NCBI RefSeq assembly: GCF_001425305.1
Contig: NZ_LMEE01000001.1
Coordinates: forward strand, 694,646-758,645
Reading direction: 5' to 3'
Origin: Phenylobacterium sp. Root1290
GTDB lineage: Bacteria > Pseudomonadota > Alphaproteobacteria > Caulobacterales > Caulobacteraceae
DNA: 64,000 bases
The position numbers were made by a program, and so were the translations under genes. Within the stretch, counting starts at the first letter, position 1, and the number at the start of each line of letters is the position of its first letter. Shown piece by piece: positions 22,225 through 60,876 of this stretch. The notes beneath the pieces were generated by a model that saw only the letters and a program-made list of their open reading frames with translations, made no database searches and was not told the origin of the DNA.

Positions 22225-22239
22225 GTTCCGCATTCGTTC
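22225..22239 (-). promoter_or_regulatory. LexA (SOS) box upstream of ssb
   Basis: GTTC (22225-22228), seven bases, GTTC (22236-22239), an exact match to the alphaproteobacterial LexA direct repeat. It lies in the 148-base gap upstream of ssb and 87 bases from its start, so it probably controls ssb. Confidence 0.7.
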
Positions 22240-22733: not shown

Positions 22734-23414
22734 CTAGCCAATGGAAGAGATGGAGCAATTCTGCGCCTGTTCGGCCAGCGGACGGAAGCTGCGATTATCG
22801 CCTGAAACCTCGACCTTGCCCGGCACCAGGCGCAGCGTTTGCTGCATCCAGCGCCCGTAGGTGGCGCCGCCGGGTCGCTCGCAGCGCCCTGCGAACAGCG
22901 TCTGAACGCAAGCATTGAGCGTCAGGTCGCTGGGCAGCTTGCGCCATCCGCCGTCCACATAGCGCCAGCAGCCCCCTGTCGGCGCGTTGCTGGCGGTCGG
23001 GGCTTGGTTCGGCGCCGTGGGCGCCGGATTGAGGGGAACCACAGCCTCCGGCTGCGGCGGCAGCGGGGTCAACATCGTTCCGGCCTGATCGGCGGCCGCC
23101 AGATTTCCAGCCTCATCGACACCGACGTCGAGCGCCCCGGTCGCCACGCCATTGCGCTTAGCGCAATCGGCCAGGGTCATCTCGCCGACGTACTGACCGG
23201 CGACGAAGCAGCGCAGCGGTTTGGCGGGATCAAGCCGGCCATCGTCCGGGGCGCCGGTTTCGACGACGAGCCCACCTTGGGAGGCCGGAGGCGGCGACGT
23301 CTTCTCATCGCGCCCCTTGTTGACCATCACGCTGGCGATGACCACGCCGGCCAACAGGGCGAGCGCGCCGCCGACGAGGGCCAGAAGCGTGCGCCGATCT
23401 TTCAGGAATTCCAT
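22734..23414 (-). CDS. Hypothetical membrane-anchored protein
   Basis: 226 residues. One N-terminal transmembrane helix (about 10-33, LLALVGGALALLAGVVIASV) is followed by a periplasmic region with a proline-rich linker and six cysteines, including CWRYVDGGWRKLP and CVQTLFAGRCERPGGATYGRW. Paired small cysteine-containing modules on either side of the linker suggest an internal duplication. Function unknown. It runs 45 bases upstream of the lipoprotein gene and may be co-transcribed. Confidence 0.7.
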   Translation of the reverse strand: MEFLKDRRTLLALVGGALALLAGVVIASVMVNKGRDEKTSPPPASQGGLVVETGAPDDGRLDPAKPLRCFVAGQYVGEMTLADCAKRNGVATGALDVGVDEAGNLAAADQAGTMLTPLPPQPEAVVPLNPAPTAPNQAPTASNAPTGGCWRYVDGGWRKLPSDLTLNACVQTLFAGRCERPGGATYGRWMQQTLRLVPGKVEVSGDNRSFRPLAEQAQNCSISSIG

Positions 23415-58877: not shown

Positions 58878-59537
58878 TTAGAGGCGAGGCTCCGCCAGCA
58901 CAGGGGGCGCAGCCGCGGCCGCGCGGCGACGCAGGACCTCGCGGGCGACCAGGCCGATGACCACGATCCCGGCCAGGGTGATGGCGCCGATGGTGACCAG
59001 ATGCGCCTCGCCCAGAGCTTCCAGCTCCGCCAGGCCCCTGGCGGCGAAGTAGCCCGGCGCGAGGATCGCCAGCACCCAGACGACGGCCGACACCGCGTTG
59101 GCCAGTTGGAAAGTTCGGCGACGCATCTGCAGCAGGCCGGCGACCAGCGGCACGAAAGCGCGCAGCGGACCGAAGAAGCGGCCGAAGAAGATCGAGGCGG
59201 CGCCGTATCGGCGATTGAACAGGCGCGTGCGCGCGACCTTGCGGCGGTGACCGCGGAAGGCTGGATGGCGCAGGGCGCGGGGGCCCAGGCGACGTCCCAA
59301 CTCGAACGACACCGCATCGCCGACGATGGCGCCGGCGACGCACCACAGCACCACTTCCATCGGATCGAGGACGCCGGCCGCGATCAGACCGCCGGCCATC
59401 ACCATCAAGGCGGTGGCGGGAATGAAGGCGCCGATCAGCACCAGCGATTCCAGAAGCGTCACAATGCCCAGCACCATGCCCGCCCAGGCCGAATGGCGGG
59501 CGATGAAATCGGCAAGGCTTTGGATGAACGCTTCCAT
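58878..59537 (-). CDS. DedA family membrane protein
   Basis: 219 residues, DedA family lipid scramblase-like membrane protein. It has LGIVTLLESLVLIGAFIPATALMVMAGGLI, the ExxxPxPGE-equivalent region, FFGRFFGPLRAFVPLVAGLLQMRRR and a C-terminal helix (GAITLAGIVVIGLVAREVL). The ATG at 59537 (MEAFIQSLADFIARH) was selected; upstream sequence of the open frame has no similarity. The LexA box at 59654 lies 117 bases from its start and could affect it, but is nearer the terminase-like gene. Confidence 0.9.
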   Translation of the reverse strand: MEAFIQSLADFIARHSAWAGMVLGIVTLLESLVLIGAFIPATALMVMAGGLIAAGVLDPMEVVLWCVAGAIVGDAVSFELGRRLGPRALRHPAFRGHRRKVARTRLFNRRYGAASIFFGRFFGPLRAFVPLVAGLLQMRRRTFQLANAVSAVVWVLAILAPGYFAARGLAELEALGEAHLVTIGAITLAGIVVIGLVAREVLRRRAAAAAPPVLAEPRL

Positions 59538-59653
59538 GGGAGGAGCCCGATATGGGGCCGTTCCGCGCCGTCCGCGAGTGGGCGCAAGGCCGCGGCAGGC
59601 AAGTTTTTCGGCTTGTGGCGCAGATGCCGCAGACCCGTGGGCCAGAACCATAT

Positions 59654-59668
59654 GTTCTTGCTTTGTTC
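59654..59668 (+). promoter_or_regulatory. LexA (SOS) box upstream of terminase-like gene
   Basis: GTTC (59654-59657), seven bases, GTTC (59665-59668): exact match to the alphaproteobacterial LexA motif, 24 bases before the ATG at 59693, where a promoter would be covered. Confidence 0.65.
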
Positions 59669-59692
59669 TTAGCGACGGGATAGGCTTGGTGA

Positions 59693-60388
59693 ATGCATGA
59701 ACCCACCGAAACGCCGGCGCCCGGCCCCCGCGCCGCGATCCCCTTTTGTGAGGAGATGGCGACGAGCATCTGCGCACGCGTCGAGGGCGGCGAAAGCCTG
59801 CGCGCGATCTGCAAGCCGCGCGACATGCCGGGCGCGGCGACCGTCCACCGCTGGGCCGCGGTGCGGCCGGAGTTCGGAAAGGCGTTGCGCCGCGCCCAGG
59901 CCGCATCGCAGGCCGCCCGCCGCGACGCCTATCGCGCCGGAACCGCCGATCGGGCCTGGAAGCGCGCTCGCCCCTGGGCCCGGCCCGACGCCTATCAAAC
60001 CGAAATCGGCGAGGAAATCTGTCGGCGGCTGGCCAGCGGCCTGAGCCTGCTGGAAGTCTGCGGCCAGGACGACATGCCGGCCACCGGGACCGTCTATGAG
60101 TGGCTGCGCGCCCACGACGACTTCACGCGCATGTATCGGGAGGCCAGGCGGATGCAGGCCGAGATGCTGGCCGATCTGGCCTGGGCCATCGCCCGCGATG
60201 CACAGGACCACGACATCAAGGTCGCGCGGTTGCAGTTCGACGTGCTGCGCTGGCGCGCCTCGCGGCTAGCGCCGAAGGTTCATCGTGAGGATGACGACAA
60301 GCGCGAGCAGGTCATGGAGGTCTATCTGCAGGACTTCACGAGCGGCGCTATTCTGTCTGGCCCCCGGCGGGTTGGGCCCGGAGCGTAA
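59693..60388 (+). CDS. Terminase-small-subunit-like protein with two repeats (orphan)
   Basis: 231 residues. Two related helix-turn-helix repeats are visible: about 25-69 (ATSICARVEGGESLRAICK) and 105-151 (GEEICRRLASGLSLLEVC), sharing IC-R, G-S-L, C, DMP, TVxxW and F residues. A C-terminal segment (about 175-197, ARLQFDVLRWRASRLAPKVH) matches the Sf6-type small terminase signature. Phage terminase subunits recognise DNA for packaging, but no large subunit, portal or other phage gene is near. A perfect LexA box lies 24 bases upstream, so it may be SOS-controlled. The first repeat is diverged. Confidence 0.78.
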   Translation: MHEPTETPAPGPRAAIPFCEEMATSICARVEGGESLRAICKPRDMPGAATVHRWAAVRPEFGKALRRAQAASQAARRDAYRAGTADRAWKRARPWARPDAYQTEIGEEICRRLASGLSLLEVCGQDDMPATGTVYEWLRAHDDFTRMYREARRMQAEMLADLAWAIARDAQDHDIKVARLQFDVLRWRASRLAPKVHREDDDKREQVMEVYLQDFTSGAILSGPRRVGPGA

Positions 60389-60657
60389 AAGTCTCGAGGC
60401 CGCGTCGCTATTAGGGGAACTCCAAGCGGGTTTCTTGCTTTCTGAGGTAGCGAAACGGCGGTCAGGCACTATCTGTGCTGTCGTTACGGTAGAGCCAGCG
60501 AGCGACGCACATGTGTCGATGTCATCTTAAACAGGACCGAATGTCGGCCTGACCTCGCCCAGCGGCGGTCATGCGATGGCCGTCCGCACGCTCGATCGTG
60601 AGACCCCAGAAGGGGCGTCACGAACCCCGAAAGTAAGTTGAGTAAAAAGGAGCTCAC

Positions 60658-60876
60658 ATGGCTCTGCAGATTCTTGTGTCGCCCGCCGGTCAAGGTTGGG
60701 CTGTTCGTTCCGAAGCCTTCGACAACGATCTTCTCTTTGAAGCCGGCGGCCGCGCCGAAGCCGCCGCCCGCGCCCTCGCCGACCGCTATGCGCGCGCCGG
60801 AAGCGCCGCCGAGGTGAGCATCTTCCTGCGCAATGGCGACCTGGCCGGCCGCTTCCTTCACAGCGCCGCCGCCTGA
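60658..60876 (+). CDS. Small conserved-looking hypothetical protein
   Basis: 72 residues, soluble: ILVSPAGQGWAVRSEAFDNDLLFEAGG, then an alanine-rich helix and AEVSIFLRNGDLAGRF. The fold resembles small DUF2188-like proteins (beta-helix-beta). A strong AAGGAG ribosome site is eight bases upstream. It is separated by 270 bases from the terminase-like gene (no clear feature seen there) and is followed by a bidirectional terminator. Confidence 0.72.
   Translation: MALQILVSPAGQGWAVRSEAFDNDLLFEAGGRAEAAARALADRYARAGSAAEVSIFLRNGDLAGRFLHSAAA

Follow-up and report, generated by a model that had tools for sequence, protein, structure and literature searches.

The 64,000-nucleotide window analysed here (C1:694646-758645 of the 4.26-Mb genome G000, Phenylobacterium sp. 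Root1290) contains an open reading frame (59693-60388, + strand) for a 231-aa protein that resembles phage small terminases (TerS) and carries tandem helix-turn-helix (HTH) units. As the initial annotation stated, a perfect GTTC-N7-GTTC box, GTTCTTGCTTTGTTC (59654-59668, + strand), ends 24 nucleotides before its ATG at 59693. The motif GTTCN7GTTC is the published LexA box of Caulobacter (PMC12700426). Between box and start codon, GATAGGCT (59679-59686, + strand) is a possible -10 region, inferred from G.TA..CT columns kept in five orthologs and not from any promoter experiment. If it is real, its spacing would place the transcript start at or beside the ATG, and the mRNA would be leaderless.

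The gene is flanked by a DedA/VTT family gene upstream (58878-59537, - strand; PF09335, 1.7e-17) and by a gene for a 72-aa, weakly DUF2188-like protein downstream (60658-60876, + strand; PF09954, E 0.081). The same neighbours are found on both sides of its orthologs in P. haematophilum (L001), L003, G098 and G123. When five ortholog promoters are aligned, the box stands out as an island of identity amid diverged DNA, followed by G.TA..CT and then by the ATG. It lies at -38/-39 in L001, L003 and L045, and has one end mismatch in G098/L044; a broader group of homologs beside one same sterol-desaturase gene (L111, L115, L124, L126) is boxed too. The reading under study would have fallen had the box not been conserved in related genomes, but it is kept in orthologs and recurs in distant paralogs. 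It would also have fallen had the gene belonged to an unrecognised prophage. This we reject, since the gene sits in a syntenic chromosomal block common to several other Phenylobacterium genomes and the window, as already noticed, has no large terminase (TerL). The whole genome has a single weak match to the TerL family (a 254-aa ORF on another contig) and lacks a TerL partner of the type endemic to the genus.

In L218, L219 and L228, dedA and the DUF2188-like gene are present, with nothing TerS-like between them. From blastn of the flanks and synteny, the sister genome L228 lacks an 851-bp cassette of operator and gene (59595-60445, + strand), and its equivalent intergenic place, of about 97 bp, is a clean empty site. 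A look for terminal repeats and transposon ends at the cassette borders gave nothing convincing, and a conserved upstream 24-mer (GGCAAGTTTTTC...) was not found at other loci. In L004 (1283-2759), a boxed homolog of 58% identity lies between dedA and the gene of a 135-aa protein, and the dedA/DUF2188 gap is empty; this appears to be a neighbouring but different insertion place. Among the closest orthologs dN/dS is 0.13-0.28, about twice that of the neighbours yet clearly purifying (0.2-0.4 in a wider set), with similar constraint on both HTHs.

The encoded protein

Pfam family PF20901 (Sf6_terminase) matches the protein in two stretches (E 5.9e-47), and the TerS family PHROG 1482 matches it at 9.2e-47. 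E-values here and elsewhere in this text are specific to the tool that gave them. A repeat profile delimits two HTH units, at residues 18-74 and 100-158. In the N-terminal, extra unit the HTH proper occupies residues 18-57 (59744-59863, + strand, from the repeat profile), and its motif GESLRAICKPR.MPGAATVHRWA is invariant bar one residue in the aligned orthologs. The second HTH, residues 100-140 (59990-60112, + strand), corresponds to the DNA-binding domain of TerS according to PF20901, the repeat profile, the alignment with Sf6 gp1 and the structural model. It is followed by a helical oligomerisation core, residues 141-198 (60113-60286, + strand), placed by alignment with Sf6 gp1 (3hef), and by a C-terminal strand-like motif, EVYLQDF, residues 209-215 (60317-60337, + strand), recognised by motif comparison. 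Such a V.V..F-type tail is common to TerL-partnered TerS and to orphan homologs with a box: it is present in 33 of 54 boxed orphans, against a mean of 7.5 after shuffling.

Sf6 gp1 (PDB 3hef and mutants) aligns with residues 96-198 at E 1.5e-16 and 28-30% identity, spanning both the DNA-binding and the oligomerisation domains, and was the sole Foldseek match in the PDB at E<=1e-3. An AlphaFold2 model built from four orthologs has a mean pLDDT of 77, with mostly 85-95 in the HTH blocks and lower values in the core and tail. It shows two three-helix HTHs (helices 20-31, 36-39 and 48-57 in the N-terminal one), long helices and a short C-terminal strand. The protein thus appears to be a whole TerS with one added N-terminal HTH, because residues 96-198 cover the domains of Sf6 gp1 and residues 18-74 repeat the HTH only. 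This amends the initial annotation, which described tandem small-terminase segments: there are two HTH units and a complete C-terminal TerS, but not two full TerS copies. Ring formation is inferred from homology. No curated name could be assigned from NCBIfam or PADLOC, and PADLOC matched none of the four tandem paralogs in the genome to a defence family.

LexA-type boxes and relatives across the genus

Within the window, a second box, GTTCCGCATTCGTTC (22225-22239, + strand), serves as a comparison site upstream of ssb (22138-21605, - strand). The two had been called identical; their eight fixed bases do match, but their spacers differ. A third match (22893-22907) falls inside an ORF. Chance had been estimated to yield about one box in 64 kb; we count three against 1.64 expected, and 24 of 100 shuffles reach three, so that the number of boxes is not significant alone. 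The significance of the box upstream of the TerS-like gene comes from homologs, not from this count. Elsewhere in the genome, exact boxes also precede recA (PF00154), a dnaE-type polymerase gene, a RecN-like gene, radC and comM. The genome has 113 exact boxes versus 64 occurrences of the reversed pattern, that is, roughly 50 above chance. Exact boxes also adjoin the starts of a RhuM-family gene (PF13310; L174 427-1545, - strand) and of a HATPase_c_3 (HSP90-like) gene (L179 1-1434, - strand).

Four genes of this genome have two PF20901 repeats, and three of them are preceded by exact boxes (C1:754299, the gene described here, C1:616043 and C2:318392). Just before a boxed paralog (C1:615413-615898) we observed a second exact box (C1:616370, locus L051) ahead of a small cysteine-rich ORF (MKNNDRGDMQREPLLACVGSDRHLVAHCASPGCQ...), possibly another SOS gene.

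Phenylobacterium species inhabit soil and water. PF20901 matches are present in 74 of the 101 genomes of the genus, with at most 20 per genome. We considered two sets of homologs: set 1 was collected with our gene as the query of a family-wide search, and set 2 comprised the next 60 best PF20901 matches in the genus, picked by score before their upstream DNA was seen. Because it is uncertain where translation of many homologs starts, boxes were sought relative to the first repeat, within the 350 bp that precede it. In set 2, an exact box was present at 39 of the 51 two-repeat genes, and in set 1 at 24 of the 41 multi-repeat genes, versus 2 of 60 and 1 of 58, respectively, for the reversed pattern in the same interval. 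They mostly point one way (60 versus 5), and the spacers of set 1 are AT-rich.

Using a TerL profile made from three phage TerLs, and one Pfam Terminase_6C neighbour, we classed 21 homologs as TerL-partnered. None of these has an exact box in that interval, versus 63 of the 84 tandem genes that have no TerL next to them, where about two were expected (Fisher p 8e-11; binomial p about 1e-85 against the background rate of set-1 loci, uncorrected for relatedness). The statistic draws on related sequences, and cluster-level figures are safer: with a clustering threshold of 50% identity, a box is found in at least one member of 19 of the 23 orphan clusters, and at 12 of the 14 singletons. Because boxes do occur in certain phage-like modules, 1-3 kb upstream of the TerS, the lack of a box in TerL-partnered homologs means only that there is none at the TerS promoter.

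Within the HTH, the columns of the recognition helix rank among those that vary most between paralogs, with 57 different nonamers among 69 genes, and they are invariant inside the ortholog group of our gene, which suggests that each ortholog group may read a DNA sequence of its own. In relatives with four HTHs (L088, L092, L098, L102; ORFs of 288-475 aa), the unit seems to have been multiplied further, and each of the four genes starts at an exact LexA-type box.

In a tree of the C-terminal unit, two-repeat genes largely cluster together. The TerL-partnered tandem TerS (L050, L072, L077, L079, L085, L103, L125, L138) form one subclade with support 0.979, and single-domain TerL-partnered TerS fall elsewhere. 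Deep nodes are weak, so the tree does not decide whether descent ran from phage to orphan or in reverse. We found no tandem genes outside the genus: matches in other Caulobacteraceae (6 genomes) are single-domain or broken, and 387 Alphaproteobacteria genomes yielded no further one. Phage and plasmid records gave only partial matches, none covering 80% of the protein, and a scan of viral contigs found no close relative. Outside the genus, single-domain TerS-like genes in L198 (G357) and L089 (G013) have exact upstream boxes, GTTCTGTTTATGTTC and GTTCCGCCTTTGTTC (- strand); these could be independent cases or chance.

About half of the 101 genomes of the genus (TerL in 54, portal in 48) carry, essentially once each, a podovirus-type head module of TerS, TerL, portal, scaffold, capsid and other structural genes, about 15 kb long in L085 (head module loci L085 7794-16254 and L211 1-7486; relatives in L072, L077, L079, L050, L063, L067, L083, L096, L103, L138 and L214-L216). 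Its flanks are partly shared, with an S24/HTH repressor-like gene nearby, and several LexA-type boxes go with it, located in L085 where the scaffold ORF begins. No integrase was recognised among the head-module genes scanned. The module is a candidate SOS-controlled domesticated phage or element resembling a gene transfer agent (GTA).

Possible roles

The initial annotation proposed a domesticated phage DNA-binding protein under LexA control. As a reading of the sequence this stands, given the conserved box, the syntenic chromosomal locus and the absence of TerL, and the gene very probably belongs to a LexA-controlled family of domesticated TerS. Homology to TerS, the extra HTH, the operator, its conservation, the missing TerL and purifying selection are observed. 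Oligomerisation, sequence-specific DNA binding and any contact with TerL are inferred, as are LexA binding and induction by DNA damage, for which there are no binding or expression data.

What might such a protein do? In undamaged cells, LexA would sit on the operator, which would overlap the promoter. DNA damage would lead to LexA cleavage and to synthesis of the tandem TerS, which would oligomerise through its TerS core, use its two HTHs to bind one particular DNA sequence and retain a TerS-like tail. As a TerS mimic it could then poison or retarget the TerL of a phage that has been induced or is just entering, and fewer phages would be produced. Our best guess ranks this interference with packaging ahead of a role as co-opted SOS regulator, its close rival, then of a self-transducing parasite, and last of a role in the endemic module or a GTA.

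Two further explanations are less likely. That the gene is ordinary prophage debris beside a chance LexA-like box is hardly credible. The three boxes of the window are near chance and some family members are damaged (L003/L104 are frameshifted), but the counts at orphan genes and their clusters, on which we reject a chance box, speak against it, as do the footprint in orthologs and a dN/dS well below 1. We also think it quite improbable that the orphans are extra packaging-specificity subunits of the genus-endemic podovirus-like module or of a resident gene transfer agent. The TerL-partnered TerS of the module do include the tandem architecture, their subclade lies inside the tandem tree, and the module has LexA-type boxes of its own. 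It is, however, absent from 26 genomes with at least four PF20901 matches, including the one studied here, and tandem genes are lacking in the other Caulobacteraceae genera sampled. Orphan count is unrelated to its presence (Mann-Whitney p 0.89), and for want of association we rejected dependence on the module.

We tentatively suggest that the protein interferes with, or retargets, the packaging of phage DNA when SOS induces prophages. We put this first because more than DNA binding has been kept: the whole TerS is retained, as the Sf6 gp1 alignment and fold matches indicate, and so, in most boxed orphans, is the tail of TerL-partnered TerS. The timing would suit, as SOS coincides with prophage induction, boxes at the TerS promoter are found at most tandem genes without TerL partners and at none of the TerL-partnered homologs, and the same exact box is found at recA and the other accepted SOS genes listed above. 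Variation of the recognition helix between paralogs is as expected for a repertoire of specificities, presence or absence varies at a fixed locus, and there are precedents in the TerS of SaPI operon I, in Ppi (PMC5052747) and in Rpp (PMC6739421). The strongest objection is that the genome has no Sf6-type TerL of the endemic kind and that orphan number is independent of the module. Moreover, no PADLOC defence family matches, the dN/dS values do not betray a fast arms race, and contact with TerL is only inferred, since the strand motif of the tail could serve oligomerisation instead. There is a real, if somewhat weaker, possibility that the packaging role was lost and that the protein is now a LexA-induced DNA-binding protein for secondary SOS genes, replication or nucleoid structure: the genes are chromosomal and stand alone, they persist where Sf6-type TerL is absent and show no association with the phage-like module, and the extra HTH is strongly conserved, with purifying selection on both HTHs. 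A simple regulator would nevertheless have no need of the oligomerisation core and TerS-type tail that most members keep, and many matches per genome, diverging recognition helices and variable presence look more like a repertoire. It is unlikely, finally, that the cassette is selfish, released by LexA together with prophages and directing the TerL of such an SOS-induced prophage to begin packaging at the cassette's own locus so that flanking chromosome and cassette are transduced. It would be in effect a one-gene satellite without integrase, which damages the phage and transduces itself. This would explain the many dispersed boxed copies, and it fits a self-contained operator and gene of 0.85 kb with a clean empty site and no integrase, and the L004 homolog, which flanks dedA on its opposite side. 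It is established that many pac sites are located within terS or close by. No pac-like site was identified here, however, and the fixed position of the ortholog group in several species suggests that its descent was mainly vertical.

Relation to known systems

We found no link between orphan TerS and LexA outside phage satellites, and no SOS work in Phenylobacterium, in the open-access literature searched (subscription papers were not covered). This points to the orphan, LexA-boxed tandem TerS being an undescribed gene family. The novelty claimed for the gene thus holds to the extent that no earlier description was found there, and the observation is larger than first seen, as the gene is one member of a multi-copy, genus-wide family. 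It would add to one bacterial genus a large, lineage-specific and undescribed branch of the SOS regulon, made of dispersed genes, one per locus, that descend from a viral packaging protein and are very probably under LexA control. If its members act on packaging, they would represent a host-level check on prophages timed by damage, or a class of very small packaging parasites. If they are regulators, they would show TerS turned into a transcription or chromosome factor of the DNA damage response. Either way the family would be used by bacteria, or would be using bacteria, when DNA is damaged.

The Caulobacter SOS regulon (PMC12700426) has the same operator type and promoter position, whereas the text of that paper includes no terminase. 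Sf6 gp1, the PF20901 TerS of a Shigella phage, shares the HTH and helical oligomerisation core; our protein differs in its extra N-terminal HTH, and its gene in its LexA operator, lack of a TerL neighbour, chromosomal location and multiple copies. The TerS of GTAs (RcGTA) is likewise maintained by the host, but is reported to lack a DNA-binding domain (PMC11841831), where ours has two. The nearest described case is the terS of SaPI operon I, which is also under LexA control and outside the phage late operon (PMC5052747). That gene resides, however, in an island that also encodes an integrase and replication functions, and it shares its operon with interference genes; our cassette, an operator and one gene, meets none of the features of PICI/SaPI satellites (integrase, att sites, replication module). 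In mechanism, the nearest systems are SaPI Ppi, which binds phage TerS (PMC5052747), and PICI Rpp, which forms a heterocomplex with TerS and so blocks phage packaging (PMC6739421). The likeness lies in the proposed interference with packaging at the level of TerS. Rpp and Ppi bind the phage TerS, whereas the protein described here is itself a TerS homolog, for which any such interaction is only proposed.
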